From NCBI GenBank assembly GCA_000702025.1, contig JNKJ01000030.1, positions 1 through 64,000 of the forward strand: a stretch of 64,000 nt of DNA. Reading direction: 5' to 3'. Shown in pieces: positions 32,128 through 54,931 of the stretch. Numbering within the stretch: the first letter of the stretch is position 1; each line of letters starts with the position of its first letter. The stretch is from Blautia schinkii DSM 10518. GTDB lineage: Bacteria; Bacillota; Clostridia; Lachnospirales; Lachnospiraceae. Below the pieces are notes generated by a model. It saw only the letters and a program-made list of their open reading frames with translations. It searched no databases and was not told the DNA's origin. The translations under genes were made by a program, and so were the position numbers.

Positions 32128-32131
32128 AGTT

Positions 32132-32766: not shown

Positions 32767-32801
32767 CTATCTCAATGAGATTTTAATCGAAAAGGAGATA
32801 G
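32767..32801 (+). promoter_or_regulatory. Hairpin that can mask the ribosome binding site of prepilin 4
   Basis: CTATCTC (32767-32773) pairs with GAGATAG (32795-32801), overlapping the Shine-Dalgarno AAAAGGAG. Sequence and layout copy the element at 32089-32127, so the leader was duplicated together with the pilin gene. Confidence 0.6.
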
Positions 32802-32805
32802 TGAA

Positions 32806-35970: not shown

Positions 35971-35982
35971 GGAGACAGGAAG

Positions 35983-36936
35983 ATGAGTGTTTCGACAAGA
36001 GATAAAAAAATACTGCTGATGTTTTTAGGTGTCCTGCTTTTGGTGCTGAGCTACTTTTTCGTATACAAGGGGCAGATGGAGGAAGCATCTGTGATTGAGA
36101 GCGAGAATGTCTCCCTCCAGGCACGCCTGAACGAGCTTTTGGAAATGGCAAAAAATAAAGAGTTTTACGAGCAGGAAACCAGAGAAATGCAGACCAAAAT
36201 CCTGGAATACTGCGAGGCCTTTCCCGCAGATGTACGTCCCGAGGACGGAATCGTACTGGCGCAAAATATGGAAAATGTCATGGATATGAAGATTTCCAAT
36301 GTCGGCCTTGGAGCCAAGGAGTTCATTGCCTCCCTGGACGGAAAGACTGAAGAGGAGCGAGGAGAAGATTTCGAGCAGACTTTGATGGAGCAAGGCGCTT
36401 CCGTAACCGAGGAGCAGATTGCAGAGATAGAACAGACCCAGGGGATTTCCCGTGAAGAGGCTATTCAGCAGCAGAGCATGGAAATCGCGCTGGATGCAAC
36501 GACAGACCTTCTCAACGCAGCCTTCACTCCAACACTTTACAGGACACAGGATACGATTCAGTTTGTGTCAACTTACGATAGCCTGAAGCGTTCCGTAAAA
36601 TACCTGGCATCTCAGGATGGCCGTATGACCATGAACAATGTGAACGCATCCTTTGACAGCACGACCGGAAACCTGACTGGGACTATGACGATCAATATAT
36701 TCTCTATGACAGGAGCCGCGAACACCTATAACAAACCGGATGCAGGCAAGGTTCCGTACGGCACTGACAATATTTTCGGAACCATCGAGTCCACAACAAA
36801 GAAAAAGAAATCAAAGAAGCAGAAGGCCGCGGCCGAGAATAAACAGGAAGCCCAGACTACGGAAAACCAGGAAAATAATGAACAAGGGAACGCTGCACAG
36901 GACGGCCAGAAACAAGAGGGCGGCGAAGCCCAATAA
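35983..36936 (+). CDS. pilO: PilO-like pilus alignment protein
   Basis: A 317-residue bitopic protein with one N-terminal membrane helix (KILLMFLGVLLLVLSYFFVY), a coiled coil, and a ferredoxin-like extracytoplasmic domain matching the PilO position and architecture. The C-terminus is an unusual disordered tail rich in Lys then Gln/Glu/Asn (KKKKSKKQKAAAENKQEAQ...). It starts 12 bp after pilMN with AAGGAG. It is expected to heterodimerise with the PilN part of the fusion in the extracytoplasmic space. Confidence 0.85.
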   Translation: MSVSTRDKKILLMFLGVLLLVLSYFFVYKGQMEEASVIESENVSLQARLNELLEMAKNKEFYEQETREMQTKILEYCEAFPADVRPEDGIVLAQNMENVMDMKISNVGLGAKEFIASLDGKTEEERGEDFEQTLMEQGASVTEEQIAEIEQTQGISREEAIQQQSMEIALDATTDLLNAAFTPTLYRTQDTIQFVSTYDSLKRSVKYLASQDGRMTMNNVNASFDSTTGNLTGTMTINIFSMTGAANTYNKPDAGKVPYGTDNIFGTIESTTKKKKSKKQKAAAENKQEAQTTENQENNEQGNAAQDGQKQEGGEAQ

Positions 36937-37083: not shown

Positions 37084-38736
37084 ATGAAGCGAAATTCACC
37101 GACAAAAAAGAATTCCGGCATGTCCCTGCTGGAAGTGATCATAGCTGTCAGTATTTTCGCTATCGCGGCGACGATTCTGCTCCAGGGGTTTGTTACCTCG
37201 GGGAGGATTAATAAGAAATCGAATCTGTATCTGGAGGCTACCTCTACTGCACAGAATATTATGGAGGAGATTAAGGCGAAGGACTTTGAGGAGGTGGCGT
37301 TGGCGTTTAATTATCCCATCGATGACACGAAGCCCACAGGACGGGTGAGACTGTCATTTCTGGATTCCCAGGAGGGTAATATTGGTCCGGAAGAGGGCCA
37401 GCTAGGGATTAAAGAAGTCATAAAAAACGGAGACAAATATGACGAAGTCAGTTTATATAAAGAGTCTTACGGCGAGGATGAATCCAAGGTAACCGCATCT
37501 GTTATTTCCAAAGATAATGGAAGAACTTATAAATTTAATCCGCGCAAAACAGGAGATAATCAATCGAAATATTATTTTGAATTAATAAATGTACCCGGTA
37601 ATCATGAGACCTTTGATGCACTTATTGAATTTGATGGCAGTAAGGATTCCGGATATAAGAAAAAAGCCAGTGGCAATGACGAGGAAGGAAAAAATGATTA
37701 TCTGGCGCCCAGCATATCAAAACTGGATTCTAAGACCAATGCTTTTCTGATTATGAAAAAAAATTGGGATGATAATGCAATGCAATCCTTAGCTACAAAA
37801 CAGAATAAAGCTGCTGAGGCGGAATGGCAGACAGCGTTAGATAATGCTTTGCCAGCTCAGGGAGAGGCGAATTATGAAGAATTACGTGAGAAATACATCG
37901 CGGAACATCCGAGGCCTGAGCAGTTAGACCCTGACGAGATGTATGAGCATACCAGACGTACCTTGTTTGTGAAAATAGTAGAGGAAAATGGTATTATTAA
38001 AGCAAAGGCCAAATATACCTTATGTGCCTATGACTATGTAAAAGAAGACGGCGGTGAATACGAAAGAATGGATTTTTGTCCCTGTAAAGGGAAAGGAGAA
38101 GAAGGAGAGGGGCTTTACGATGGATGCTTCTGCACAGCGAAAAGCGCCTACGTTACTTTTTATGCTTCTGAGGCGGATTCGGATTTTAACAATTTGTATG
38201 TGTTGTATTATCCGAATTACAATTCTACCAGCAGTGTAAATCCTCTGGACGAATTTGTTTTGGACAATACAACGAATCATCCGTTGAATTTTTACATAAC
38301 AAAGCAGAGGGACGAAGTTCTGGACATCCCTACTTCCGTACAGGAAAACACCTATCGTACAGCAATTACGATAAAGGAAAGTCCGGATCTCAGAGGATTT
38401 GAGAACTGGAATACCAATCCAAGTCTTTATGAGGCGGCGACTAAGCTGCTTACGAATATTAATTATGACATTAGTGATGTGGATAAGATTTTAGAGCGTC
38501 CTAAGATCAATCAGATGAAGCTCACCTATCTTTCTGTATCAAAGGATGGTTCTGAGGGAAGAAAAGTGACGGGCAACAGTGCGGAAAAGGTACTGAGATA
38601 CAATGGTCTGGATAATAAGGTACAAATGGACCGTATCTACACCGCGAAGGTTGGAGTATACAAAAAAGGTGCTGCAAAGCAAAATTTCCCGGACTCTGAG
38701 CTGATTGTAACTTTAGATGGAGCTAAGGAAAATTAA
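37084..38736 (+). CDS. PilV/GspI-like minor prepilin, unusually long
   Basis: About 550 residues from ATG 37084 (ACAGGAGGA upstream). Leader MKRNSPTKKNSG, then MSLLEVIIAVSIFAIAATILLQGFVTSG, a PilV/GspI-type pilin helix with Met at +1 and Glu at +5. Typical PilV proteins are 150-200 residues; here about 500 residues follow the helix, including a Cys cluster (CPCKG...CFC). It opens a block of six genes that copies the minor pilin-tip gene set of Gram-negative type IV pili. Confidence 0.85.
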   Translation: MKRNSPTKKNSGMSLLEVIIAVSIFAIAATILLQGFVTSGRINKKSNLYLEATSTAQNIMEEIKAKDFEEVALAFNYPIDDTKPTGRVRLSFLDSQEGNIGPEEGQLGIKEVIKNGDKYDEVSLYKESYGEDESKVTASVISKDNGRTYKFNPRKTGDNQSKYYFELINVPGNHETFDALIEFDGSKDSGYKKKASGNDEEGKNDYLAPSISKLDSKTNAFLIMKKNWDDNAMQSLATKQNKAAEAEWQTALDNALPAQGEANYEELREKYIAEHPRPEQLDPDEMYEHTRRTLFVKIVEENGIIKAKAKYTLCAYDYVKEDGGEYERMDFCPCKGKGEEGEGLYDGCFCTAKSAYVTFYASEADSDFNNLYVLYYPNYNSTSSVNPLDEFVLDNTTNHPLNFYITKQRDEVLDIPTSVQENTYRTAITIKESPDLRGFENWNTNPSLYEAATKLLTNINYDISDVDKILERPKINQMKLTYLSVSKDGSEGRKVTGNSAEKVLRYNGLDNKVQMDRIYTAKVGVYKKGAAKQNFPDSELIVTLDGAKEN

Positions 38737-38754
38737 GGCATTTGGGAGGAAAGC

Positions 38755-41244
38755 ATGAGCAACATAAAAATCACACATAAAAAACAAAATAGTGGCTTTT
38801 CTCTGTTTACAGTTCTGGTGGCCGTTTCCTTTATCGGGATTCTGGGGATGCTGGTACTCTATATTGCTGTCGCCAATTTTCAAATGAAAACCACGGGCTT
38901 AAAGGGCAAGGACAGCTTCTATACAGCAGAGCGTGCGCTTGAGGAAATTCGGACAGGGCTTCAGCAGGATGTGGGTGATGCCATGTCAAAGGCTTATATT
39001 CAGGTTTTGGAAGATTACAATAAAAACGAACAGTCTAATGATATGCCTCTGGATAAGCAGCGGCAAAGTGATTTTGAGGATGCCTTTACAAAAGAGCTGT
39101 CAAATCGTCTGCGTGATCAGAAAAAACCTACCTGTTACAGTTTGGATTATTTAAAAGAATATTTAGATTTGGATAACAGTGACAAATATGATCCGGAAAA
39201 AGAGTCGATCATTATAACTACACCGTCAACGGACGAGCCTTATATGATAAGCGGAAAGAAGAGCGGCGTGCTGCTTAAAAATCTGAAGGTGATCTATGTA
39301 GACCCTCAGGGTCGGGCTTCTGTTATCAGAACTGATATACGTCTGGGGATACCTAAGGTTCAGTTCCCAACGCCGTCCACGCTTCCGGATTTGATGAGCA
39401 TGATTGTAGTAGCAGGCAGCGGTATCGTTTGTGAGGCTGAGGCTGATGGTGCTGCGGTTGGAACTCCGATTTCAATTCAGGGAAGTGTTTATGCAGGGAC
39501 ATTGAAGGAGCAGTCGCAGTCATCTGAGAATACACAGACAAGTATTTGGATCAAAGAGCGTGCTTCTCTGGATGTCTCCCATGGAGATAATCTGGTTTGT
39601 GACGGAGAAATCCGGGCGGATATGAATAGCACTTTTAAAAGCGGAACAGGAATGTCACTCTGGGCGAAAGGAATAACTCTGGCATCAGCGGATGTCAGCC
39701 TGCTTGGCAAAACATATCTGGCAGATGATTTGACAGTATCGACCGGAAACAGCAGTAAGGTGACGATTTGTGGAGAATATTACGGGTATGGCTATCCTGA
39801 ATCAGCAAAAAGTAACGAGTGTGTAAGTGCAGAGGAGAATAAGACGTTGTCTGATGCCGAGTTAAATAGTGCAATTGTTATCAATGGGAAAAATACAACG
39901 ATTGACTTGTCGGCGGCGGAAAAAATAATGCTTGCAGGTAAAAATTATATTGGAAGCAGAAAAATACCGTCTATAGATGGGATAAAAAACAGCAACGATA
40001 TTATGACGGGGGAAAGTCTTACTGTAAAGGGTACACAGCTTGCCTATCTGGCTCCTGCTGAAATTTTTGCTGTGGAAAATACGGATACTTTTAATAATCC
40101 TATGTCATATGAGGATTATTTGAAACTAAAGCCACAAGATTTAGACTCTATTCCCGTGAAATGGGATATTCCTGTAGAGGCATGGGGCGGCCAAACATTA
40201 AGTGGCATAGAGGTAGATTCAGAAAAGCCCATACAGGAGGTGTTTTACAATGATAATTCAGCTCCGGGCGGCGGCTTTGTATATTTTTATTTGAATTTTA
40301 CAGATGACGGGGCGGCCTCAAGACTTCTGAATTATTATTATAAAGATAATGAGCAAATGAAGAAAAATATGGATGAATATCTCTCTTTTTACTTTAGCGG
40401 CGAAAATACCGGAATAAATGTAAAGGATGCAGAGACCTATCTTCGCTATGTTACGAATGGCAATGTGATTTCTTACGAAGGCGGTGAGACGGCTCAGGGA
40501 GAACTGAAAAATGCAACACATTCAAACGTAACAGAGAATATGATTCAGGATCAGACAAACTTTCAGAATACCTGGTATGCATTAAAGAGAAAAATGATTA
40601 TCAGCTATGATTTATTAAAAGATAATGTCAAAGATTCTGAGGGTCTGCCCCACAATGAAATGAAAAGTGACAGAAATGTATTTGACAATCTGGTAAATGA
40701 AAAGCAGTTGGTGCAGTATATTGTCGAGAAAGACCCGACTGATTTAAAGTGCGATTATGAAGGCACGGAGAGCGGATTTCGGGCAATCATGTATCATAAT
40801 GGTGAGAAGAGTACATTTAAAGTAAGAGAAGAAGGAACAGGAGATACCACGGAAGGCGAAATTATTACGAAGGAAGTAGAAGTAAAGGGAAAAGATACTC
40901 CACTACATATAACCAAAGAGAATGAGGAAAAATTGCGCCTTGTGGTATGTACCGGGGATGTAGTCATTGAAGCAGGGGTCCATTTCAAAGGCATCATTAT
41001 GGCAAAGGGAAAAATAACCTTAGAGCCGGGTGCTGAACTGTTGTCGGAGCCATTGGAAGCGGCGAATGTATTTCAGGATCAGACCGCATCGGATGGTGTT
41101 TCTCCTAAGGACTTTTTCTGGGAGGGCGATCAGTATGTTCTGGGAAATTCCAGTGATCTGGAAGGGAATACTGCTTCTGTCCACGTATCTGATACATATG
41201 ACTTAGCAGAATGTGTAACATATGAAAACTGGAAGAAACAATAA
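38755..41244 (+). CDS. PilX/GspK-like prepilin without Glu5, 829 residues
   Basis: Leader MSNIKITHKKQNSG, then FSLFTVLVAVSFIGILGMLVLYIAVANFQ. The +5 residue is Thr, not Glu. Loss of Glu5 is the hallmark of GspK-type pilins that cap the filament tip. A helical segment after the membrane part is followed by about 700 residues of extracellular sequence, with beta-helix-like stretches (ASLDVSHGDNLVCDGEI...). The C-terminal part (VVIEAGVHFKGIIMAKGKITLEPGA) resembles filament-surface or polymer-forming modules. GGGAGG precedes the ATG. It overlaps the next open frame, but the preferred start of that gene lies 20 bp downstream. Confidence 0.82.
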   Translation: MSNIKITHKKQNSGFSLFTVLVAVSFIGILGMLVLYIAVANFQMKTTGLKGKDSFYTAERALEEIRTGLQQDVGDAMSKAYIQVLEDYNKNEQSNDMPLDKQRQSDFEDAFTKELSNRLRDQKKPTCYSLDYLKEYLDLDNSDKYDPEKESIIITTPSTDEPYMISGKKSGVLLKNLKVIYVDPQGRASVIRTDIRLGIPKVQFPTPSTLPDLMSMIVVAGSGIVCEAEADGAAVGTPISIQGSVYAGTLKEQSQSSENTQTSIWIKERASLDVSHGDNLVCDGEIRADMNSTFKSGTGMSLWAKGITLASADVSLLGKTYLADDLTVSTGNSSKVTICGEYYGYGYPESAKSNECVSAEENKTLSDAELNSAIVINGKNTTIDLSAAEKIMLAGKNYIGSRKIPSIDGIKNSNDIMTGESLTVKGTQLAYLAPAEIFAVENTDTFNNPMSYEDYLKLKPQDLDSIPVKWDIPVEAWGGQTLSGIEVDSEKPIQEVFYNDNSAPGGGFVYFYLNFTDDGAASRLLNYYYKDNEQMKKNMDEYLSFYFSGENTGINVKDAETYLRYVTNGNVISYEGGETAQGELKNATHSNVTENMIQDQTNFQNTWYALKRKMIISYDLLKDNVKDSEGLPHNEMKSDRNVFDNLVNEKQLVQYIVEKDPTDLKCDYEGTESGFRAIMYHNGEKSTFKVREEGTGDTTEGEIITKEVEVKGKDTPLHITKENEEKLRLVVCTGDVVIEAGVHFKGIIMAKGKITLEPGAELLSEPLEAANVFQDQTASDGVSPKDFFWEGDQYVLGNSSDLEGNTASVHVSDTYDLAECVTYENWKKQ

Positions 41245-41263
41245 TATAATAGGGCGGTGCTGC

Positions 41264-41854
41264 ATGAGAAGAAAAAATAAGGGGTTTACCCTGGTGGAAT
41301 TGGTTATAGTAATTTCAATATTTGCCATACTTCTGGGAATGTTGGCTCCATCACTGAATTCTATTCTTGGGTTCCGCGTTCAGAGGGCTACAAATTCTAT
41401 TGCAGCAGCGTTAGACAAGACGAGAGTAGAGGCTATGAATCGTCTGGTAGGAGAAATGAAGCTGGAAAAACGGTCTGACGGATATTATATCAGCTACTAT
41501 CTCGACAGGGGAAAGGCATCAAGATCAGAGGGTGCAAAGGAAGAACAACCAGAAAAAATCGCTCCGGCAGGAATGGTAATCAGCTACACAACGGATACAA
41601 ATCCTGAAGAACAGAAACTGGGAGTTAATGAGTCTGTGATACTGACATATGACCGGGCGACGGGGGGCTTCCTGCCGTTGCAGGATGTAGCGTGGGAACA
41701 GGAAGACATCATTAGTACGCTGGAAGCCGGAAATGATATTCCGCTTAGAAGGACCGGAAGCTACTGTCTTGAAATTAAAATACAGGGCGGTATGCGTACC
41801 AGAATAATTGAGATGGATATAAATACGGGAAAATACACGATCAAGGCGGGGTAA
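41264..41854 (+). CDS. FimT/GspH-like minor prepilin
   Basis: 196 residues from ATG 41264 (an upstream ATG at 41222 would overlap the previous gene; GGGCGG precedes 41264). Leader MRRKNKG, then FTLVELVIVISIFAILLGMLAPSLNSILGF, the FimT/FimU/GspH type of helix. The mature domain is a conventional size and includes SDGYYISYYLDRG and a C-terminal MDINTGKYTIK. In Gram-negative pili this pilin type joins PilV, PilW and PilX in the priming complex at the tip. Confidence 0.85.
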   Translation: MRRKNKGFTLVELVIVISIFAILLGMLAPSLNSILGFRVQRATNSIAAALDKTRVEAMNRLVGEMKLEKRSDGYYISYYLDRGKASRSEGAKEEQPEKIAPAGMVISYTTDTNPEEQKLGVNESVILTYDRATGGFLPLQDVAWEQEDIISTLEAGNDIPLRRTGSYCLEIKIQGGMRTRIIEMDINTGKYTIKAG

Positions 41855-41901
41855 AACCGAAGGACATCCAAAGACTTAAGTGATTAAAGGAGATTTGTCT
41901 T

Positions 41902-44900
41902 ATGAGCAGAAAGATAGAAGACAAAAATAAAGGAAAGAAAAATAATAATTCAGGTTTTACCCTGATTGAGATGGTGGTGACAGTTGCTATTATCGCCATT
42001 TTTGCCGGGGTAATTCTGACTTTAATCACAAATGGTTCCAACTCCTATAGAAATACTTCCAATAATGCAAAGGTGCAGATGGACACACAGGAGCTGTTGG
42101 ATGAAATTGAAGATTTAATTATAGATACGAACAGAAGCGTGTATTATTTTGCGGGAAGCAGTACGGAAGTAGACAGTGCGCCGTCTTTGGGCAGTGATAT
42201 GGGCCAAAATAATTCCGGAACCAAAACGTTTTTGGTCTGTAATGAATATGAAAATGGTGACGGAACCAGTCAATATATTGTAGACGCGCTGGAATGGAGA
42301 GCAAGTGATCAGAAAATCTATTATAGCCGGACACCATATATTGATGCAAGCAGCAGTGTCAAAGAAGAAGCGGTAGAGAAAGAGGCCGAAGGTGGTGTGG
42401 CTGAGTTTTCTTCAGAAGATAATTCTGTAAATGATGAAGCACTTGTAACCGATGAAACAGATGGGGTTAAAAATGTCTCCCGGCCGCAGGAATCCACAGA
42501 AAAAATCCTGTCTTCGGTTTACGCGGAAGGTGTAGTGAACTTTAATGCGGATGTTACAAAGGTAGAGAGTGACCGTGTGGTTCGATTCGAGCTTACCACT
42601 GACAGCGGCGGAAAAGAAATTGAAACTATCTATACTGTTAATTTAAGAAATAAGATACAGGTACAAAAACCATCAGATGCTTTTTCTAAGGCACCGTCTC
42701 AAGATCTTTTTATAGAGATTAGAAATAATCCGATATCTATGGAGGCAGGGGGAGAGCCTGTGCGTCTGAGATATGAAGTCGGGCCGGAAGTTATTCCCGG
42801 AGAACTGGATATCGATCCATCTACAGTTAGATGGACGGTAGTAAGTGGACCTGGAAGTTTCCCGGAGGAGGACCCGACAAGTGGAAAACTGACCGCAGAT
42901 GCCAATGGATCGGGTAAAATTACAGTTAAGGTTTCTGCTGTCACGATAAAAGGAGTTCCTATAGAATCATCTCCGGTTGATATTTTGGTTATTAATAAAA
43001 AGCAGCCGTCTGATTTAGAACCGAGTACAGGTGCGGTTCTGATTGGCGCGGGAAATTCTGCTGATTTGAATGATCTTGTGTCTTGGAAACAGAAGTATGA
43101 TGATGGGTCTGTGGGCGAAGATGATGTAAAGGTGAATTGGTCTGCGGATTGTGGATTTGCAAAAGTTACTGAGGATGGGCAGATTACGATTGGAGCGGAA
43201 GCGGGAACAGAGACGACAGGAAGTTTTACGGTGACAGGTACAAATCCGGAAACAGGGTCGAAAGGGACTGTTACTGTGAATGTTGCGCGGATTGATATTG
43301 CAGAAATTGGTGAAGTTACTTCGAATGCTAATATATCTTATAAGGCAATATATATGGAAGCCGGGAGGGCATACGAAATTACGGGTGATATTAGTTATGT
43401 AAATAATCATAAAATTACTTGGGGTTTAGTAAATAAAAAGAATGATGAAGAATATACACCAACAAATAAGTCTAATTTTACAAAAGCAGATAATGGTACT
43501 TGGAGTATAAAAGTTGAAGTGAATTTAGATACTGGAAAAATATTTTCTTCAAAAGAGTTTATGGTTAATATTACAGAAGCTGGTTATAAGATAGTGGGTC
43601 CTTCTTTAGTGACAGCGGATGAAACTTACCAAGTGTGGAGAGATTGGCAGGTAATAGATACCAGCACAGGAGACAAAGTTAACTCACCTACAGTATGGCC
43701 TGTAAGTATTGAAAATTCATCTGATGTAGAAAAGAAAAGTAGTGATTGGGAGATTATAGTTGATATTTATATTGGAAGAAGTGCTGAAAATTTTACGATT
43801 AAGATTGGTGTACCAGACTGGCTGTGGGATAAGGCTGGAGTAAAATATTTAACGTATGACGTAAAAGTAGTAAAACTGCTTGGAATAGACCCATCTGAGG
43901 CAACCAAACCAATTGGAAGTGACGTAACCTTAACACCTAATATTACTGTTGGAGGTTCTGCTGCTAATGATGAAGCCAAAAAACAGCTCACATATAATTG
44001 GGCTTTAAATAATAAGCCACAAGAGTGGGGACAATCGGCAAATTGGACAATAGGTGATGATGCGTTAAAAGAAAACAGAATTTCATTACAAATAAAGATG
44101 CCAGATGGAAAAAATGTATATTGTCCCAATAAAGGCACGGATAGAACGGAGACATCAATTATTACTGTTGATTATGCGGTAGATTTTTCTCTAATAGCTA
44201 AGAATGATTACAAGAAAATTGTTGCTGGAGAATCGGCAGCTTTTACTTCGCAGATAAGGGTAAATGGCGAAACACCACAAGATTTATCAAAATATCCTGT
44301 GACGTGGAAATGTGAAAAGATAGATGGGAAAGGTGCTTCCATAGATGTCCCGGATGTTTTGGAGCCAAGTGGTAACTTGGCCGGAGAACAGACTACTTTC
44401 AAGCCTGAATCGTTTGGAAAATATAAAATATCTGCGTCAGTAGAAGCTTTTGGGCAAACTTTTGAAGCTGAGCCATACGAAATAAATGTAGACGAGATTA
44501 AGTTTAGTATTAAGCAGAAAGACCACATTAAAGATATGATACTCAACTCGGACTTGGCTTTTTATCCAGAACTTGTTATAAATGGGAAAACGCCAGATAA
44601 TTTAGAGGATTATAATATTGATTGGAAATGTGAAGAAATTAAAGGGGACGAAGAATATCAACTGAATAATAATTTGATAGAAAGGACGGACAATGGTACA
44701 TTAAATTTTAAACCCACAAATAGAGGAAAATATAAATTAAGTGCAATTGTAACAGTGGATGGTAGAGAATTCCCGGCATCCTATGTTGTAGATGTTCATG
44801 AAGTAAAATTTGAAGTTAGAGAAACACTGAATAAGCGTTCCGCAGTGCTGGGAGAAGCACTTAATTTTTGGCTTTATTTAGAAATTGACGGAAAAGAAGT

Positions 44901-46044
44901 TTCATCTACGGACGAACGTTTTACAATTGTTTGGAATCAAAATTCAGTAGTAAATGGCGCTGCGATACCGGGTCAACAGAACAGAATTAAATATACAATT
45001 CCTCAAGATGCTCCTGATACTGTAAGCGCGTCTGCGTCGCTTACGGCATTTGGTCAACAAACATTCCAGAGCCAATATAATATAACCGTTACTAAATTAA
45101 AGGTAAATATTATAGGTGATGTGTATCAACAAATTTATCTGGATGAAGACGAAACTTTTTTATATGATTTTGATGCTGTTGTGATGGAAAGTGTTAATGG
45201 TGCAGGCCAAAATGACGGGGATAAAGATGTTACTGCTAACTATCCAGTCAACTGGTCCTTGAAACTTGATAATGATGAGTTATCTGCTTATATACGTATT
45301 GATCATGAGAAGGGTGAATTCTCTATAGATTCAAATAATATTACGGAGCCTTTTATTGTAGAGATAAAGGTACAATTAAAAGATTACGAAGAAATATTTG
45401 ATACTAGAATAATATATGTATTTCCCAAGGAAACCTTAAGAGAGACTGTTTATATTGGACAAGATGAAGAGGAAAGCCTAAATTGTCCTGGTGTGCCTAA
45501 AGAAGAAAACGTAAATAATATTAGTTTAGTAGTCCGATATGACGATAAGCACATTGAGTATCCAAGTGTCAGTGACTTTAAAGGTTTTACTATTATCCAG
45601 GGGGAGAAGATACCACTAAAAATCAAAATGAGCAATAATGTGAATCTTTTGAAAACGATTTCTTCAATTGATTTATCGCTGAATTTTGATACGAAATTGT
45701 TTGTTTATACAATTATTCCACAATTTTATAATGTATATCACGGTCATTCAGAAGGACCCTTTTGGGCTTCCGTATGGGTTGTTGATGAAGAACCAGCACA
45801 TGTCTATATTCCGTCACCGGAAACCTTACTTATGATGGGGAGTCGAGTAGATAGTTATACATATTCTTGGGTAGAGGGATCTACGCGTTGTGAGTTACGC
45901 CAGAGTTCGAGTGGCTATGCAGGTCGTGGTTTGTGGATTATAAAGTATCAAGATAATTATTATGCGTATGTTGAAGGGAAGTGGGAACAGAGACCATTGG
46001 GTTGGTTTTGGTTTTTAAAAGCGATAGTTTCTCGTAAATTGTAA
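41902..46044 (+). CDS. Giant PilW/GspJ-like pilin fused to Ig-like repeats
   Basis: 1380 residues. Leader MSRKIEDKNKGKKNNNSG, then FTLIEMVVTVAIIAIFAGVILTLITNGSNSYRN, a PilW/GspJ-type pilin helix. About 220 residues of pilin-like domain and a Glu-rich stretch follow. The remaining 1,000 or so residues hold Ig-like/Big domains, with recognisable repeats of about 100 residues starting near 758 (VDFSLIAKNDYKKIVAGES), 866 (IKFSIKQKDHIKDMILNSD), 967 and 1066; repeats 1 and 2 share WKCEEI and GKYKISA-type motifs. Family members are normally 200-350 residues. It is predicted to be a tip-located adhesin exposed by the pilus. AAAGGAG precedes the ATG. Confidence 0.85.
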   Translation: MSRKIEDKNKGKKNNNSGFTLIEMVVTVAIIAIFAGVILTLITNGSNSYRNTSNNAKVQMDTQELLDEIEDLIIDTNRSVYYFAGSSTEVDSAPSLGSDMGQNNSGTKTFLVCNEYENGDGTSQYIVDALEWRASDQKIYYSRTPYIDASSSVKEEAVEKEAEGGVAEFSSEDNSVNDEALVTDETDGVKNVSRPQESTEKILSSVYAEGVVNFNADVTKVESDRVVRFELTTDSGGKEIETIYTVNLRNKIQVQKPSDAFSKAPSQDLFIEIRNNPISMEAGGEPVRLRYEVGPEVIPGELDIDPSTVRWTVVSGPGSFPEEDPTSGKLTADANGSGKITVKVSAVTIKGVPIESSPVDILVINKKQPSDLEPSTGAVLIGAGNSADLNDLVSWKQKYDDGSVGEDDVKVNWSADCGFAKVTEDGQITIGAEAGTETTGSFTVTGTNPETGSKGTVTVNVARIDIAEIGEVTSNANISYKAIYMEAGRAYEITGDISYVNNHKITWGLVNKKNDEEYTPTNKSNFTKADNGTWSIKVEVNLDTGKIFSSKEFMVNITEAGYKIVGPSLVTADETYQVWRDWQVIDTSTGDKVNSPTVWPVSIENSSDVEKKSSDWEIIVDIYIGRSAENFTIKIGVPDWLWDKAGVKYLTYDVKVVKLLGIDPSEATKPIGSDVTLTPNITVGGSAANDEAKKQLTYNWALNNKPQEWGQSANWTIGDDALKENRISLQIKMPDGKNVYCPNKGTDRTETSIITVDYAVDFSLIAKNDYKKIVAGESAAFTSQIRVNGETPQDLSKYPVTWKCEKIDGKGASIDVPDVLEPSGNLAGEQTTFKPESFGKYKISASVEAFGQTFEAEPYEINVDEIKFSIKQKDHIKDMILNSDLAFYPELVINGKTPDNLEDYNIDWKCEEIKGDEEYQLNNNLIERTDNGTLNFKPTNRGKYKLSAIVTVDGREFPASYVVDVHEVKFEVRETLNKRSAVLGEALNFWLYLEIDGKEVSSTDERFTIVWNQNSVVNGAAIPGQQNRIKYTIPQDAPDTVSASASLTAFGQQTFQSQYNITVTKLKVNIIGDVYQQIYLDEDETFLYDFDAVVMESVNGAGQNDGDKDVTANYPVNWSLKLDNDELSAYIRIDHEKGEFSIDSNNITEPFIVEIKVQLKDYEEIFDTRIIYVFPKETLRETVYIGQDEEESLNCPGVPKEENVNNISLVVRYDDKHIEYPSVSDFKGFTIIQGEKIPLKIKMSNNVNLLKTISSIDLSLNFDTKLFVYTIIPQFYNVYHGHSEGPFWASVWVVDEEPAHVYIPSPETLLMMGSRVDSYTYSWVEGSTRCELRQSSSGYAGRGLWIIKYQDNYYAYVEGKWEQRPLGWFWFLKAIVSRKL

Positions 46045-46077
46045 TTATTACCGGAAATAAAAGGAGGTTTTCCCCGC

Positions 46078-49000
46078 ATGAGACTCAAACATAAAAAAAT
46101 ATTCATATCCGGCGTGGCGTTGACAGTAGCGGGCGTACTGGGCGTTGGGGCGTTGCTGCAGAGCAGCGTTTCCGTCCAGGCATCCTCCGCCATGATGCCG
46201 GGTATTGAACAAATTGTAGGGGAGGTATCCGAGGAGGAGCCTTTCCAGATATTAGAGATTGTAGACAGCAAGGCTGACGCGGAGATTGGCTATTATGTTT
46301 CCGGGCAGGAGCCTTACATTAAGCTGTACGAATATCAAATTAAGGATGAAGAAGGAAATGTCACAGAGACGATTCATTTTTCTACCTTGGAAGAAGGACT
46401 TAGTAAGCTTCCTTCCGGACAGCTCAGGGAAGAATTTGCCCGAAACGTAAAGTTTATTACTGATGATAATGGTAATCTCATTCCTGATGAAAACGGTAAT
46501 CCCACATTCACATCTTCAGATATCAGGAATATTTCTGACATCTCTTATAAGGGCGGAGAAAGTGAAAGCGGCGATCCTGTTCAGGATTACCCTCTTTCCT
46601 ATACCGATTATGAGGAGAAATATTTCTTTGAGGACGGTGAAAGCACAGAGACTGGCTGGAACCAGATTGATTTTGTGGATTTTGAGGGACAGCCCAGGGT
46701 AGACAAGGTTTCCCTTGCCGGAACCTATGTGGAGAATCCATCAGGAAACGGTAATTATACGAAACAGGAGCAATCCTATTACCCTATCCGTAACGAGGGC
46801 GATATGGGAAACGACGCCGCTAAATTCCGGGAAAACATCCAGAACTTTTTCTACTCCGAAGGGGATGATACTCGCGCGCCGTATGACTTGAAATTTGAGG
46901 AAGTGAGTAATGCTACAGTTAATGATGTTTTGAACGGTGAATATCTGGACGGGAAGAATCCGATTCTTGAGGAATATGATTACGCACAGGGCAGATACGG
47001 ATATTACGAAAATGTATATGCAGATTTGACCACAGAATTAGCAGACAAGCCAACTTCTTTTCCGGGAGAGAAAACGGAGACAGAGGCTGGAGTTGTAATT
47101 CAGGAAAATGAAAATTTGGCCACCACAGAACTTTTCAGCGCTGGTGATGCGGAACTCTTTGGCTCTGCGGAGTCTGGTTCTGCGGAGCCGGATTCAGGGG
47201 ATGAGATTTTTGGGGCAGATGCTGTTGGTGATGAAGTTGTTTTCGATAATGACACGGATGTATTTTCAGATGATGTTTTTACCACAGATCCGATAGAAAA
47301 TAATGAGCCAGTTGAGAATATTGAGCCTGCGGAGAATAGTGCGATTCCGGATGTACTGGCAGACGGTAATGAGGATGATACAGTTAAGGAACCGACGATT
47401 CTTGGGGAAATTCAGGAGAGCACAACAGCAGGAACTCAGTCAAATCCCTATATCTATCTTGGAAAAGCGATTGATGAGTATCCCAATTACAAGTACACAA
47501 AAGTCGGGGATTTGGCCTATGTGAAAACAATGGCTGAAAAAAGTGCGAAAACTGATAAGCAAAATATAGAAGAAGGCAAGTCTATTACAAGAAAGGCTGA
47601 AGATATCACTATTGAGAATGACCAGTATTGGTATTGGGAACAAGTCGGGAGCGCTGAGAACGATTTGGTGAAACAGCCCTTGAGTGTTGTAACAGGACGT
47701 CAGCCAGTGGCTTATAATCATATCAGACCTATTTCCGGGAAGCTGAATTATAATTATTATTACCGGGTAGAACAGGTGTATTTCTGCTGTAAACTTCCTG
47801 ACGACGGGAACCAGAAAAATCCGCAGTCTTATCAATATTTTGGATGGTATTTTCCATCGTATCCGGCAAATGAGTCTGTTTATCTGCCGATTGAGGAGGG
47901 CAGAACCCCTACACATTATATTTCTGATGCAGTATACAAACTCACCCCGGGGAATGGTAATTATGATTTTGTTCCCGGAGGAGAAGAAACCTGTGAGGTG
48001 GAAGTCAATCACGCATATTACAGAGGCGGTTATGTAAATAATGACTGGCTGAAGCGCTATGTGTTTCATCTTTCCCCGACTGCCCAGAGTATGAACAGCG
48101 AAACGGCAGAGGAAGGTCAGGCGGTTTCGGATGAGGAAGCCAGAAAACAATTTGATAACTTTGCTATTGAGGTGGATACTTTTACCGCAGAGGAACTGAA
48201 TGCTGTTCTGAATGGTACTGCAAAGCAGGCGGAGGAGACATATCAGGCGGCTGACCCGGAGCAGACAGAGGATGAATATCAGGCATCAGATACGGAGCAG
48301 ATGGAGAGCGGAGAGACCGCGGACGCAGATCAGACCGAAAACGGAGATCAGGTCTCAGCAACAGATCAGGCAGCAGATGAGAACCAGACAGAAGAGGAAA
48401 CTCAGGCCCCGGATGAAAACCAGACACCGGACGAGGACCAGACATCAGACGAAACTCAGGGTTCAGGGCAGGAAAACGGAAACGCGGATACATATGCCGA
48501 TGAAGTGATGGTTTTTGGCGAGGGAGAGGTGTCGCAGGTTGAACCGATGGTCAGCGAGGTCATGGAGGAGCTGGTAGGACCACAGGCGGATCAGTTATTC
48601 AGTGACAGCGACGGACAGACGCAGACAGAACAAGTACAGACAGAACAAACACAAGCAGAACAAACTCAGCAAACACAAGCGGAGCAGGAGCCGGATGCAG
48701 ACTCCTTATTTAGTGATGCCGAAAATACAGAGCCGGAGGAAACTTTTTCTTCAGATGACGCGGCGGTATTTTCATCCGGCAGCGAGGCGAAAGACGCAGA
48801 GAATGACGGGAGATTTCAGTTATCGGATTATGATTTGATTTATATTAATGGCAAGTTGATTTCTCAAGAGGCAGCAAATGCCCTTGCTGAAAGCGGGATT
48901 CCCTGCATAATCAATCAGGATAAAATGATTGATACAGAGGGCCAATCAGGGGAACCGAACAGTGTAGAAGCGGCATTTTTTGGATTTTTGCATGAAGGTG

Positions 49001-52000
49001 ATGAGGATGGTCATTATGTGAACCAATATGTATATTTTTTCAAAAATACATTTGGAGATTCAGATGAAACAGCGCCAGGCTCCGGCTCGAATCTGGTGAA
49101 TGTGCGTTTTCATACACCTTTCTACACCGAGGGCGGCCAAAGTACATTCTCCGACAGCACGGTTCCTGAAGTGCCACAGGGGTTTGAGGAAATAAGAGAT
49201 TATATTGACAGCGAAAATCAATACCGTGGGCTTGAGGATGGGATTGAACCTTTGAGCTATGATATTTCTCAGGCCAGAGTGGTGGAGTATATATTGAATT
49301 ATAAGTTGAAAAGAATTACAAATTTAAAGAAAAAGATTAGCGTATTAGAAATTCAACCAGCAGTCAGAACTAATAAATTGAATGAATACGATGTATTAGA
49401 CTGGCTTGGAGTCGATGCTAAGTTAAAAATAGAGGAATATTGTTGTCAGGAAGAGCAAAAGGATAAACCTATAAAGAATATTATTGATAACAATAATGAT
49501 ACAATTTGGCATAGTCAGTATAATCCCTCCATTATAAAACATACACACTATTTTAAGGTGGAATTACCGGATGGATTAGATAAGCTTACCGGAATATATT
49601 ATTTGCCCAGGCAAGATTCCGCAAGTGTTAATGGTACTGCAACCAGGATTAAGCTTGAATTCTATGATGAAGAAAATAAATGGATAGACGAAAAAACTGA
49701 GGAGTTTACTTACAATAATAGAGAAAAACAAATTGTTTTATTTGAAAAGCCGTTAGACAATGTAAAACATATAAAAGTATCTTTTGCGGGAACCAAAGGA
49801 GATACACCTGATACGTTTGCATCTTGCGCAGAATTTGGAATTTTGCCTACAAACATAGAAATTACATCTATGACCAGTTCAGAGTTTGTCGGTCATATTG
49901 AAGATCTCAATACAAAGTATGATATAGTCTATGTAGGTGGAAATGGCCGCCATTCAGATGCAGAATGGGCTAAGTTGATAAATGGTCAAGATAAATTGCT
50001 CTATTCGCATGTTGGAGCGGCAATCAAAGGGGGGATTAATCTTCAGGGATTGATGGAACAGGATATCAGTACACTGAAAGATGGAAATGGTAAATTAAAA
50101 ATTTGGGGTAGTGATACACTGAGTGCCGATGGAATTGGGTCACTGAGAGGTTCGGGGAATGACATCACCAGACAACAAGTCAACGCATTGATAGATTTCG
50201 CGAAGAGCGGCTATCCGGTCGTCATTGATAATGCTCTGTACAAGGAGGGTGCAATTGATAAAGAGAAGGTGGATAATTCTTCGTATTTCTATGATTTTTT
50301 GACAGAAATGGATAAGCTTAAAACCAGTGGTAAATCAAATGTATGTATGAAATCAGAGGCAGCGGAAGGTGGATTGATATTTTTTGCTAATCTGCCTAAA
50401 CCTGGTCTTGATTTTGAGAAAGGATATAAACCGAACAATGCAATTGGAGATGCAGATGGCCCGTCGACAAGTTATATTGAGGGAAGCTTGGACTTCAAAT
50501 TTAATATTATTGATGAGGGAGCTGCATCGCCTGTAGATACCAGTTATGATTGTCAATTGTTTGCAGACTTGAATTGCGATGGTAATTTTTCGAATGCAGA
50601 GCAATTGGATGGGTTAGTTATTAAGGACGCTTCCGGTAATATTCTTACTCAAAAGAATGGAAAATACGAACTGAAACTAAAAGAGGAGTATACAGTAAGC
50701 AGAAAAATTCCTTCAAACTATACGAAGCTTATCACATGGAAATTAAAGATAGTGAATAATAAGTGGAATAATATCTGGACAACAGAAACAGGATATGCAA
50801 AGCAGAAAGTTACGGGAAATAAACCTACCATCAAGGTATTACAGGTACATCCCTCAATTAATACGAATATGAAAGATATGTCATCGGCACAGTGGATACT
50901 ATCTGACAAAATACCCAATAACATTAAGGCTCAGGATATTCCGGCATATAAGGCGAAATATTATGACACAGATTTATTTACCTATTTAGAGACTGTCAGA
51001 AGCAGTGAATTTGACATTGAGATAGAGTCCATCACGGTAGATGCTTATGTGAATACTTATGTAGATATATGGAATAAAAACAAAATAAATTATCTTGATG
51101 GTTACGATATGCTTATATTAGGTTTTTCTGATATGTATCAGAATATAACCAACAAAATTCCCGATAAATTCATTAATGATAATGGTGAAACGATAGCTCC
51201 GCCAGGGGCTGTCGATGCAATTTTTAATTTTATACAAGAAGGTAAAAGCGTTCTTTTTGCACATGATACCACTTCATTTATCAATCGGGATAATAGTAAA
51301 ATTTCATATAATACGACTAAGAAGGATGAAAAGGTAGATCCCCAAACCAACTGGGGATATTCCATGAATTCTTTATTGCGCCCAGTGGTTGGGATGGATA
51401 GATATGGCATTACATCTGTTTCAATAAAAGACATTTTGACAAAGGCTTTAGAATTAGTGAAACCGTCAAAAACATCCGATACACCCACAGATTGGGAGAA
51501 AGTTTATGACAACCAGTTTTATACAGATGCAATGGGGGGCGAATGGCCTAATGGTGATATGGCATTTCAGTCTAACTCGGCAAAAACTAAAACTTGGTCA
51601 CAGACACAAGGATATTCAAATTGTCTTTTGTTTAAGTTTAATAAGTATGGTGGTTTAGGCGGTTATGAGACGACTAGAGCAACAAAGGTAAACGAAGGCG
51701 CTATCACAGAATATCCCTTTAAGATTCCGGAAATTATAGATATCGCTAAAACCCATGGTCAGTATTATCAGCTAGCAATGGAGGAGGATGGAGATCAGGA
51801 TGGACTTAATGATATCATAGTTTGGTATTGTCTGGGTGGCAGCTATAGAACAGATTCTCCTAATGATGTGAGAAACAATTACTATCTTTATAGTAAAGGA
51901 AATGTTATGTATACAGGGGTTGGACATTCTAATGTTAAGAATGCAGAAAATAATTCTTTTGAAAAGAAATTATTTGTTAATGCAATTGTGGCATCCTACA

Positions 52001-52548
52001 GGGCATCAGTGGTTGATCCTCAGATTGATTTTGTAAGCAGTTTTAGCAGGGACGCAGCAAAGAAGCAAATAGAATATTTTATGTTGGATCAGCCGTTTGC
52101 AGTTGATGAAGAGAATATTGTCGATAACTCAAAGGAGTTCTATTTTACGGTAAATGACTATAATTTAATTGCAAGCAGCAACTTCGAGGACAGTGCCAGA
52201 AACCTGGAATTGGAATTGTTTGTTGAGAATCCCGAAGGTACTCAGGTAAGTGGAATTGACACTAAGGTCAGCCCCCTGAACGTTAAGCTTTATCAGAATG
52301 ATATGGATGAGGGGAGTATTGTCAGCAAAAATAGTAGTGGAAACTATGTAGTTAAGAGCGGTAACGTATATGCCTTTCGCATAGAAGATTTGAAACCGTA
52401 TGTAAAAGATAAAGATGCAGATTATAAAAATAATGTGAAAATTTACGCAAAAGTTTCTACTAAATTTATGCTTTATGGCAAAGAAACATCCGGTGATGCA
52501 ACGGCAGTAATAACTCTGAAACAGCGTCAGCTTTTTGATCTAGACTAA
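46078..52548 (+). CDS. Giant secreted protein (2156 aa), candidate pilus-tip adhesin
   Basis: A Sec signal peptide (MRLKHKKIFISG...SSVSVQASSA) is followed by a segment FQILEIVDSKADAEIGYYVSGQEPY, low-complexity acidic regions at about 345-445 and 715-905 (Gln/Thr/Glu/Asp-rich), and a second half resembling DUF5057-type proteins, with KISVLEIQPAVR near 1088 and IKVLQVHPSINTN near 1584. A discoidin/F5-8C-like segment lies at about 1130-1260 (NIIDNNNDTIWHSQY...YFKVELPDGLDKLTGIYYLPRQ). No pilin signal, LPXTG or C-terminal anchor is present. It sits where pilY1 lies in Gram-negative minor-pilin operons. AAAGGAGG precedes the ATG. Role inferred from context. Confidence 0.8.
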   Translation: MRLKHKKIFISGVALTVAGVLGVGALLQSSVSVQASSAMMPGIEQIVGEVSEEEPFQILEIVDSKADAEIGYYVSGQEPYIKLYEYQIKDEEGNVTETIHFSTLEEGLSKLPSGQLREEFARNVKFITDDNGNLIPDENGNPTFTSSDIRNISDISYKGGESESGDPVQDYPLSYTDYEEKYFFEDGESTETGWNQIDFVDFEGQPRVDKVSLAGTYVENPSGNGNYTKQEQSYYPIRNEGDMGNDAAKFRENIQNFFYSEGDDTRAPYDLKFEEVSNATVNDVLNGEYLDGKNPILEEYDYAQGRYGYYENVYADLTTELADKPTSFPGEKTETEAGVVIQENENLATTELFSAGDAELFGSAESGSAEPDSGDEIFGADAVGDEVVFDNDTDVFSDDVFTTDPIENNEPVENIEPAENSAIPDVLADGNEDDTVKEPTILGEIQESTTAGTQSNPYIYLGKAIDEYPNYKYTKVGDLAYVKTMAEKSAKTDKQNIEEGKSITRKAEDITIENDQYWYWEQVGSAENDLVKQPLSVVTGRQPVAYNHIRPISGKLNYNYYYRVEQVYFCCKLPDDGNQKNPQSYQYFGWYFPSYPANESVYLPIEEGRTPTHYISDAVYKLTPGNGNYDFVPGGEETCEVEVNHAYYRGGYVNNDWLKRYVFHLSPTAQSMNSETAEEGQAVSDEEARKQFDNFAIEVDTFTAEELNAVLNGTAKQAEETYQAADPEQTEDEYQASDTEQMESGETADADQTENGDQVSATDQAADENQTEEETQAPDENQTPDEDQTSDETQGSGQENGNADTYADEVMVFGEGEVSQVEPMVSEVMEELVGPQADQLFSDSDGQTQTEQVQTEQTQAEQTQQTQAEQEPDADSLFSDAENTEPEETFSSDDAAVFSSGSEAKDAENDGRFQLSDYDLIYINGKLISQEAANALAESGIPCIINQDKMIDTEGQSGEPNSVEAAFFGFLHEGDEDGHYVNQYVYFFKNTFGDSDETAPGSGSNLVNVRFHTPFYTEGGQSTFSDSTVPEVPQGFEEIRDYIDSENQYRGLEDGIEPLSYDISQARVVEYILNYKLKRITNLKKKISVLEIQPAVRTNKLNEYDVLDWLGVDAKLKIEEYCCQEEQKDKPIKNIIDNNNDTIWHSQYNPSIIKHTHYFKVELPDGLDKLTGIYYLPRQDSASVNGTATRIKLEFYDEENKWIDEKTEEFTYNNREKQIVLFEKPLDNVKHIKVSFAGTKGDTPDTFASCAEFGILPTNIEITSMTSSEFVGHIEDLNTKYDIVYVGGNGRHSDAEWAKLINGQDKLLYSHVGAAIKGGINLQGLMEQDISTLKDGNGKLKIWGSDTLSADGIGSLRGSGNDITRQQVNALIDFAKSGYPVVIDNALYKEGAIDKEKVDNSSYFYDFLTEMDKLKTSGKSNVCMKSEAAEGGLIFFANLPKPGLDFEKGYKPNNAIGDADGPSTSYIEGSLDFKFNIIDEGAASPVDTSYDCQLFADLNCDGNFSNAEQLDGLVIKDASGNILTQKNGKYELKLKEEYTVSRKIPSNYTKLITWKLKIVNNKWNNIWTTETGYAKQKVTGNKPTIKVLQVHPSINTNMKDMSSAQWILSDKIPNNIKAQDIPAYKAKYYDTDLFTYLETVRSSEFDIEIESITVDAYVNTYVDIWNKNKINYLDGYDMLILGFSDMYQNITNKIPDKFINDNGETIAPPGAVDAIFNFIQEGKSVLFAHDTTSFINRDNSKISYNTTKKDEKVDPQTNWGYSMNSLLRPVVGMDRYGITSVSIKDILTKALELVKPSKTSDTPTDWEKVYDNQFYTDAMGGEWPNGDMAFQSNSAKTKTWSQTQGYSNCLLFKFNKYGGLGGYETTRATKVNEGAITEYPFKIPEIIDIAKTHGQYYQLAMEEDGDQDGLNDIIVWYCLGGSYRTDSPNDVRNNYYLYSKGNVMYTGVGHSNVKNAENNSFEKKLFVNAIVASYRASVVDPQIDFVSSFSRDAAKKQIEYFMLDQPFAVDEENIVDNSKEFYFTVNDYNLIASSNFEDSARNLELELFVENPEGTQVSGIDTKVSPLNVKLYQNDMDEGSIVSKNSSGNYVVKSGNVYAFRIEDLKPYVKDKDADYKNNVKIYAKVSTKFMLYGKETSGDATAVITLKQRQLFDLD

Positions 52549-52582
52549 TTGTCTCCATACAAAACACGAAAGGAGTGCATTT

Positions 52583-53449
52583 TTGACAGATACCAGTGAT
52601 AAACGGAACAAGGCATTTACCTTAATCGAACTAATTATAGTCGTAGCAGTGCTTGCTATTCTTATTGGCCTGCTGGCTCCTCAGTATACGAAATATGTCG
52701 AGAAGAGCAGGCGGGCGGTTTGTGATGCGGATATTAATACAATTATCAAAGCGTACCAAGTTGAAACTATTGAGCATACTCCTGCTATTGGAGCCGAGGC
52801 TCAGGCATTATTATCGAAAATTATAACCTCCGAAGGGGGAGTGCCAAAGGATATTAATACCACATTGGATAACGGAGGACAATATACGGGAATTTGTAAG
52901 AGTAAAGGTGAATATAGCTGTCTTTTTTCTGATGATTATCGGTATGTAAGTATAAAATGTTCAGTTCATGGAGAACTGAATTTTGATGTCAAAACCTTAA
53001 AAGAGAGGATAGAGGGAATTAATTTCGCGAATATTAGCGGGTGGACTGTTGAATATAAAAGTTTGGATGATTATTTCAAAGTAGATCCTAAAAATGGAAT
53101 AAACAGAACTAGTATTGATTCAGAAGCTGGTTCTAATGGTGCTACAGATTCCAAATATGGTAAATATGGTTCGCTTGCCAATGCACTAACAGATAAGTTG
53201 ATAGAACAAGGGTTTAATGTAACCAATCGAAGCTGGCGGATGTATAAGAAGGGTTCCACCTACAATCTTTTTCTTACAGACAAAAAAATCACAGAGGATG
53301 ATGCAAAACCCGAAGTATGGATATCCTGTGAGAAGTACGACATTGCGAACGAGAAGATTGTAAAAGGCAAGGTTCAAGTAATTATGACTACAGTAAATGG
53401 CTCTACTTATCCAATTATTAAAGGTGAGAGTTTTGAACCCGACAGCTGA
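52583..53449 (+). CDS. Type IV prepilin 9 (PilE-like), with Ala at -1
   Basis: 288 residues from TTG 52583 (AAAGGAG 8 nt upstream). Leader MTDTSDKRNKA, then FTLIELIIVVAVLAILIGLLAPQYTKYVEKSRR. The residue before the cleavage site is Ala instead of Gly, which PilD accepts less often. The helix is close to that of prepilins 2-4. The mature domain is longer and carries three Cys (CKSKGEYSCLF, KCSVHGEL) that could form disulfides. It ends the locus and corresponds to the pilE position of the Gram-negative block. Confidence 0.87.
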   Translation: MTDTSDKRNKAFTLIELIIVVAVLAILIGLLAPQYTKYVEKSRRAVCDADINTIIKAYQVETIEHTPAIGAEAQALLSKIITSEGGVPKDINTTLDNGGQYTGICKSKGEYSCLFSDDYRYVSIKCSVHGELNFDVKTLKERIEGINFANISGWTVEYKSLDDYFKVDPKNGINRTSIDSEAGSNGATDSKYGKYGSLANALTDKLIEQGFNVTNRSWRMYKKGSTYNLFLTDKKITEDDAKPEVWISCEKYDIANEKIVKGKVQVIMTTVNGSTYPIIKGESFEPDS

Positions 53450-53494
53450 ATTACTCAAAGTGCTAAACAACGCCAACTCTTCGACCTAGACTAA
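53450..53494 (+). pseudogene. C-terminal fossil of a second giant-protein gene
   Basis: Directly after the TGA of the last prepilin, in the same frame, the sequence reads ITQSAKQRQLFDLD and stops at TAA. The giant protein at 46078-52548 ends VITLKQRQLFDLD. Nine consecutive residues plus the stop are the same, but seven of the nine codons differ only at the third base. This points to an old duplicated copy rather than a recent DNA repeat. Only about 14 codons remain. Confidence 0.65.
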
Positions 53495-54109: not shown

Positions 54110-54931
54110 ATGAAGGGGAATAAATTTATGAAAAAGCTGGCAGCGTGCCTTTTGGCTGGCGCCATGCTGGTGACGTCTGCAGTTCCGGCTTTTGCGGCAA
54201 CGTCATATTCGAAAACACAGAGTAAGGTAGTGGATACCGGACAGAGCTACCATATTATGAACAATAACATCAGCAAAAACAAAATCAGCAAGTATACGCT
54301 CAACATCCTGCCTCTGGAGAGCGGAACGAGATATGACCTGGCAGTGGCTTATGGCGGTAAAGAAGAGGTCATTAAAAACTGTACGAAATCATTGACTGGT
54401 TTCAGCAACACAAAGGCTACATATGTAAAATCCAGCGCCTCCAGTAATGCCGGAATGATTGCCTGCATTAAGGTTACAAAAGGCAGTGTTCAGGTTAAAG
54501 TAAACTATAGGACAACCAATAAGAGCGCGGCTTTGACATTTAAGAAGCAGGCAGCTTCTCACCAGACCCTGAAGGGCGTGACTGTCAAAAACGGTAAGAA
54601 GGTTCTTTTCCAACAGGCGGGCAGTAATATCACAACCGTACCGCTGGTCATTGCTTCTAAAAGTGGCGCCGTCACCAGAAGAGCTTTGAACACTTCTTCC
54701 TTTGAGAATTACACCTTTAATTCAAGTTTTATTAGCTATCGCTATTATAAGAATGGCGTGCTTCAGAGCAATTACAGCAAAAATAAACCATACGATACCA
54801 AAATCGGTACAACCGGATACATTATGGTCGCACTTCCAAATCGCCTCTCTGGCTGGTTCACCACGAAGAACGGAAGCGTAACTTTCTACTATCCCACCGA
54901 TTACCTCAAGATAACAAGAACAATCAAATAA
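54110..54931 (+). CDS. Secreted protein of unknown function
   Basis: 273 residues. The signal peptide ends at AVPAFA (MKGNKFMKKLAACLLAGAMLVTSAVPAFAA). The mature protein is rich in Ser, Thr, Asn, Lys and Tyr and beta-strand-like, with no catalytic motif recognised; only one or two Cys. The two halves show weak internal similarity (VQVKVNYRTTNKSAALTFKK and GSVTFYYPTDYLKITRTIK). It starts 18 bp after ybaK with AAAGGAAG and may be co-transcribed, although the functions seem unrelated. Confidence 0.7.
   Translation: MKGNKFMKKLAACLLAGAMLVTSAVPAFAATSYSKTQSKVVDTGQSYHIMNNNISKNKISKYTLNILPLESGTRYDLAVAYGGKEEVIKNCTKSLTGFSNTKATYVKSSASSNAGMIACIKVTKGSVQVKVNYRTTNKSAALTFKKQAASHQTLKGVTVKNGKKVLFQQAGSNITTVPLVIASKSGAVTRRALNTSSFENYTFNSSFISYRYYKNGVLQSNYSKNKPYDTKIGTTGYIMVALPNRLSGWFTTKNGSVTFYYPTDYLKITRTIK

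Follow-up and report, generated by a model that had tools for sequence, protein, structure and literature searches.

The genome of Blautia schinkii DSM 10518 carries, within the 64-kb stretch analysed here (the window, a word that we use for the whole stretch, also in counts), a type IV pilus locus in which four minor prepilin genes are followed by a gene for a giant secreted protein. We propose that this block probably encodes the tip complex of a monoderm type IV pilus, with the giant acting as a cap and adhesin that fills the role of PilY1 with an unrelated architecture. The proposal is based on the gene content, a phylum-wide linkage of the giant to the pilins, a K-like pilin lacking a glutamate at mature position 5 (Glu5), the lack of a match between the giant and the PilY1 profile, and the conservation of the giant's C-terminal tail. 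Type IV pilus tip complexes are already a known kind of structure, and the new element would be the non-homologous cap. If this is true, the combination of a pilin cap and a secreted adhesin has evolved more than once.

The minor-pilin block and the giant protein

The block begins with a PilV/GspI-like minor prepilin of 550 amino acids with Glu5 (37084-38736), followed by an 829-residue K/PilX-like tip pilin in which threonine replaces Glu5 (38755-41244), a FimT/GspH-like minor prepilin with Glu5 (41264-41854), a PilW/GspJ-like minor prepilin of 1380 residues with Glu5 and a large grafted C-terminal region (41902-46044), and the giant, a secreted non-pilin of 2156 residues (46078-52548). A PilE/GspG-like prepilin with a TTG start (52583-53449) comes next and lies outside the conserved block. 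An earlier note, made from the letters of this DNA, had described these six genes, and all are present on the + strand; for the FimT/GspH-like gene, the start had to be corrected, ATG 41264 being the most likely one. The N_methyl family (PF07963) is matched above its cut-off by the PilV-, FimT-, PilW- and PilE-like genes, which confirms the note's reading of these genes as prepilins. The finer names are less secure, as PilV, FimT and PilW correspond to weak profile scores below the cut-offs (for instance, E 7.6e-6 for GspH with the FimT-like protein), and the PilX-like protein has no convincing profile match. The gene in the PilW position encodes 160 to 1145 residues in 56 relatives, a rough range, as it was assigned by position.

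The clustering of these pilins is not due to chance, since eight of the nine N_methyl matches in the whole 6.68-Mb genome fall inside the pilus locus and a prepilin detector applied to the window returned exactly the nine pilin genes. The sole N_methyl match outside the window is at G000:C2:359513-359584.

The giant has a Sec-type signal peptide, as judged by eye, and no N_methyl match, and the earlier note's description of it as a secreted non-pilin stands. Pfam identifies an F5/8 type C (discoidin) domain (PF00754, E 3.2e-11) at residues 1126-1253 (49453-49836), which is rare among relatives and was found in one of the 24 giants of alignment A1, and a DUF5057 domain (PF16480, E 3.6e-40) at residues 1361-1730 (50158-51267). 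A ThuA-like domain spans residues 1575-1980 (50800-52017), and the predicted structure of the C-terminal half combines ThuA-like and immunoglobulin-like folds. The resemblance to ThuA-like proteins (4pxy, 4jqs, 4e5v) is one of modelled fold, with Pfam ThuA matching only one of the 24 giants (E 0.024).

As a secreted non-pilin linked to minor pilins, the giant has the position of PilY1/PilC, and it would be natural to ask whether it is a very divergent PilY1. The shared neighbourhood, the large size, the secretion and a calcium-loop-like motif, whose residues D1497, D1501 and G1502 do not vary in alignment A2 (64 of 72 giant references), are all consistent with this idea. Nevertheless, the giant has no match to PF05567 (T4P_PilY1) at E<=0.1, a search of PDB sequences with A2 gave nothing at E<=1, and the C-terminal half looks ThuA-like and immunoglobulin-like rather than propeller-like in the model, so we consider a divergent PilY1 extremely unlikely. 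The sequence profile thus disfavours PilY1 homology, in agreement with the earlier note. PF05567 has no match in the giant's own genome, and none in 393 genomes of the class, where the positive controls also failed to match and we therefore claim no class-wide absence; the fold-search rows inspected for the C-terminal half included no PilY1 row, which we do not count as an exclusion. We also looked for calcium loops across the giants, but the strict pattern occurs in 20 of 62 and a second loop in 7 of 62, and this was not used as evidence.

Linkage of the giant to minor pilins across genomes

Among 298 sampled Lachnospiraceae genomes, 64 contain DUF5057, and 66 DUF5057 loci were fetched, of which 59 were testable after seven with less than 5.5 kb of upstream sequence were dropped. 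A K-like pilin is encoded upstream on the same strand in 58 of these 59 loci (all but L057), a Glu5 pilin was detected as the immediate upstream neighbour of the giant in 52 (with a median gap of 18 bases, ranging from -44 to 339), and the exact order V-K-H-W-giant was found in 41. The K profile is matched at E<1e-15 by 62 of the 64 genomes with DUF5057, versus 20 of the 234 without it. In a second set, of 80 named loci retained from 387 relatives, which overlaps the first and whose counts are not added to it, the same block is found in Blautia sp. Marseille-P3087, Lachnotalea glycerini, Kineothrix alysoides, Catonella morbi and others, and 59 of the 60 loci with enough upstream sequence contain a K-like pilin, the exception being L111.

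The association extends beyond the family. In other Clostridia, all four DUF5057 matches above the cut-off, from three families, lie in pilus loci a few genes from a pilin without Glu5, and the three giants found in another, more distantly related family of the phylum are all divergently oriented genes between the PilB operon and a minor-pilin operon. Thus, the synteny of DUF5057-like giants with minor pilins, which the earlier note had proposed as a check, is clearly conserved at all three distances, contrary to the lack of synteny that the note had named as refuting its idea. The linkage survives rearrangement, which argues for a shared function. In one group of relatives (L122, L125, L127, L130, L137-L139, L142-L144, L148 and L168), a PilB-like gene lies directly or nearly directly 3′ of the giant.

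This pattern bears on a rival view, in which the giant shares its regulation with the pilus but is no component of it, acting instead as a secreted or wall-bound adhesin or enzyme. Enzymes and wall proteins, too, can contain ThuA-like and discoidin domains, and the giant begins with what looks by eye like a Sec-type signal and lacks a pilin leader. Nevertheless, it is the minor-pilin block to which the giant is linked, in different families and in gene arrangements that vary, and the giants' termini show, by eye, neither LPXTG nor a C-terminal membrane segment but a conserved tail instead. We thus regard this explanation as unlikely.

The C-terminal tail and the pilin without Glu5

The giant ends in L-F-D-L-D followed by the stop codon (52531-52548), which we propose as a docking segment; neither this tail nor the fold of the K-like pilin was part of the earlier note. 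Excluding five of the 66 giants, which run off their contigs, and including that of the window, we compared 62 giants, which are strongly divergent yet alike at their C-terminal ends: leucine is found at position -2 in 59, leucine at -5 in 50 and phenylalanine at -4 in 47. A loose form of the tail pattern fits 59 of the 62, versus 9 of 687 other open reading frames (ORFs) of the same loci, and the strict form does not occur internally in the same giants (about 102,000 residues). In the overlapping second set, 72 of 79 giants carry the pattern. At the other end, 43 of the 62 giants have an N-terminal LEIVP-type motif. As a DNA pattern, tail plus stop is not enriched in the B. schinkii genome, with 6 matches versus 12 for a reversed control; two of the six encode LFDLD, both at this locus. 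In one relative (L075), tandem giants of 1633 and 1661 residues with the near-identical tails MPMFNLR and MPMFGLR directly follow the minor pilins.

The tail is also found where DUF5057 is not. Of the 20 genomes that match the K profile at E<1e-15 without Pfam DUF5057, eight have a strong K match (279 bits or more), and the slot of the giant is readable in seven of them. Six of these seven slots contain a protein of 726 to 2847 residues with an N-terminus that looks Sec-like by eye, all six having leucine at -2 and the LEIVP-type motif and five fitting the loose tail pattern, while five have no match to a profile of the giant's C-terminal half. The twelve loci with weaker K matches (127 bits or less) contain no tail-bearing slot protein; one 321-residue ORF among them fits the loose pattern, which is about the level of chance.

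The K/PilX-like pilin has a prepilin-type leader (HKKQNSG/FSLFT) with threonine at mature position 5 and a long predicted N-terminal helix at residues 13-53, and the earlier note was right that it lacks Glu5. All 58 relatives compared likewise lack Glu5, seven of them judged by eye. The PilX_N and GspK profiles gave no convincing match to the window's protein, and PilX_N matches 2 of the 17 members of alignment A4 below the cut-off, at E of about 1e-3. Given that the prepilin detector without its Glu5 requirement also picks the signal peptides of nine giants, we based the K assignments in the family on the profile of alignment A3, to which 54 of 60 K references and 10 database proteins contributed. 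The body of this pilin is predicted to be a beta-solenoid with a fold like that of the tapirin C-terminal beta-helix. This likeness to the tapirins of Caldicellulosiruptor (6n2b, 4wa0, 6n2c) is in fold only, sequence searches having given no match, and in B. schinkii the body belongs to a prepilin. The first Foldseek row for the protein is Thermus ComZ (6qvi), a competence pilin that likewise carries a large extra domain. The K-like pilins end in a YENWxK-like motif, whose W826 is an invariant column in the 65 rows of A3, and the giant's tail may pair with this end.

These elements can be combined into a mechanism modelled on diderm pili. In the parts of the cited articles available to us, to which our statements on published systems refer, minor pilins including a subunit without Glu5 form a cap in diderms, with PilY1 on top (PMC10191384). 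In B. schinkii, the PilV-, FimT- and PilW-like pilins would form, together with the K/PilX-like pilin, a cap that primes pilus assembly. After export by Sec, the giant would dock on this cap, travel outward with the tip and be exposed there as the outermost adhesin. Docking might occur through the C-terminal tail (approximately LFDLD), in its simplest form as a beta-strand added to the pilin without Glu5. In a published model, PilY1.3 contributes an eight-residue C-terminal stretch to PilX3 as an additional strand (PMC11046646), and strand complementation has likewise been described for a myxobacterial PilY1 (PMC13190605). The tip position, the docking partner and mode, the adhesion and its ligand are what we infer in this proposal, which offers a five-residue docking hypothesis that is directly testable. 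The ligand would most likely be a polysaccharide or host glycan, because the pilin body is tapirin-like, the giant has a discoidin domain here that is rare in its relatives, and the pili of Ruminococcus albus are known to mediate adhesion to cellulose (PMC6916266).

Several observations weigh against a pilus tip complex capped by the giant. The N-termini of some giants could, by eye, be uncleaved membrane anchors. In Coprococcus catus (L057, the same locus as L111), a 652-residue giant fragment directly follows PilB-PilT-PilC with no minor pilins, and on a metagenome contig (L126), whose short upstream sequence kept it out of the count of 60, an opposite-strand non-pilin ORF precedes the giant within the 1.4 kb available upstream. 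One genome outside the Lachnospiraceae (G332) has a DUF5057 match outside a pilus locus, albeit below the family cut-off, and another (G084, one of the seven readable slots) combines a strong K-like match with an empty slot, so the cap may be dispensable. The count of 20 in 234 genomes may be too low, because giant-bearing loci were the source of the K profile. Giants with an LFDLD-type tail are confined to the family, those of other families having different ends, and the Foldseek score for the tapirin resemblance is poor (E 0.25). Finally, of five comparisons, which concern the aligned C-terminal part of the giant and do not judge its N-terminal half, only one ranks it as the least conserved protein of the block. 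Blautia sp. Marseille-P3087 (36% versus 46-66%) had suggested that the giant is the fastest-changing protein of the block, but another protein scored lower in the other four comparisons, and the idea was dropped.

The proposed complex shares with the FimU-PilV-PilW-PilX-PilY1 tip of diderm type IVa pili (Myxococcus, Pseudomonas and, as PilHIJK-PilC, Neisseria) four minor pilins, one without Glu5, and a large secreted non-pilin with a conserved C-terminal end. It differs in its monoderm host, in the tapirin-like pilin without Glu5 and in a giant with no PilY1 profile match and a ThuA-like and immunoglobulin-like model. The tip of the Streptococcus sanguinis pilus, with the modular pilins PilA, PilB and PilC, also belongs to a monoderm, and the B. 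schinkii PilW-like protein likewise has a long grafted region. However, S. sanguinis has its adhesive domains on the pilins themselves, and the available parts of two reviews (PMC6916266, PMC10191384) mention no cap that is not a pilin, whereas B. schinkii adds a separate secreted giant. The same parts present monoderm type IV pili as lacking components of the diderm outer-membrane stage, including PilC/PilY1. In the literature searched, which did not cover subscription articles, the term DUF5057 is absent, and no title or abstract on minor pilins of Lachnospiraceae, Blautia or clostridia describes such a cap. The available text of a paper on the Paenibacillus type IV pilus names no DUF protein, and its Table 4 includes no giant (PMC9765702).

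A wider picture is a serious possibility, if not the outcome we expect. Bacillota would possess a convergent PilY1 in the form of a ThuA/immunoglobulin-like non-pilin cap that docks on a tapirin-fold pilin without Glu5; in Lachnospiraceae, the tail would be a portable code that stays as the bodies change; and the tapirins would be relatives or detached forms of the tip pilin. The tip-cap proposal would by itself give a role to DUF5057 and to the large surface proteins that common gut bacteria carry, and the tapirin-like fold of a prepilin would suggest where the cellulose-binding tapirins, a family of unclear ancestry, came from.

The pilus machinery and neighbouring genes

The remainder of the + strand locus encodes, together with the prepilins, a type IVa pilus set of PilB, PilT, PilC, PilD and PilM. 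PilB (MshEN and T2SSE domains), PilT (T2SSE) and PilC/GspF occupy 26161-30478, with starts at 26161, 27912 and 29255, respectively. Four prepilin genes with Glu5, the major-pilin candidates, follow at 30669-33345, each returned by the detector with N_methyl above its cut-off; the prepilin peptidase PilD (A24_N_bact and Peptidase_A24) is at 33400-34164, and PilM, starting at 34357 and matched by PilM_2, lies with a PilN/O-like gene in 34357-36936. The PilN/O label comes from position and homologues, as Pfam gave nothing at E<=0.01 for the ORF in that position (35983-36936). PilB (26161-27900) carries the MshEN domain, which binds cyclic di-GMP (c-di-GMP) in other PilB-like ATPases and regulates pili (PMC9765702). 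Since the genes are closely spaced and most are preceded by ribosome-binding-like sequences, the locus is likely a single operon. A scan for promoters and terminators returned 62 and 13 candidates versus 46.2 (standard deviation 6.7) and 10.8 (standard deviation 3.2) in shuffled sequences, from which we draw no conclusion.

This gene set bears on a further alternative, namely that a pseudopilus piston similar to that of the type II secretion system (T2SS) exports the giant through the thick wall as cargo, with the tail as a release signal. The minor subunits do score with GspH-, GspI-, GspG- and XpsI-type profiles, all below the cut-offs. On the other hand, monoderms need no outer-membrane step, and each locus would have a single fixed cargo. 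T2SS tips bind substrates (PMC10191384), which favours the idea, but a second T2SSE-family ATPase is encoded in the PilT position, and T2SSs lack PilT (PMC9765702). PilB and PilT are both matched by T2SSE and were distinguished by MshEN, length and order. Overall, we consider such a piston very unlikely, and a pilus tip complex remains our preferred reading.

The earlier note had included the PilE-like gene in the conserved unit, a claim that does not hold: a Glu5 pilin lies directly 3′ of the giant in 2 of 62 loci, and we rejected the gene as a member of the block. Just past its stop, in frame, is a second tail-coding copy (KQRQLFDLD and stop, 53465-53494, + strand), which differs from the giant's own (52519-52548) by six substitutions, each of them synonymous and in a third codon position. 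These synonymous-only differences suggest a remnant of the 3′ end of another giant, left by an exchange around the PilE-like gene. That the PilE-like protein once ended in the LFDLD tail is disfavoured, given that ten relatives end at or near the same point without a tail.

Elsewhere in the window, two near-identical genes of no clear family lie less than 1 kb apart on the - strand (16713-17651 and 18350-19312). Downstream of the block, 54110-54931 encodes a 273-residue protein whose N-terminus resembles a secretion signal by eye and which has no Pfam match. Two similar genes in tandem follow at 55387-56358 and 56590-57588, the second weakly matching a YhgA-like transposase (Transposase_31, E 1.9e-4).
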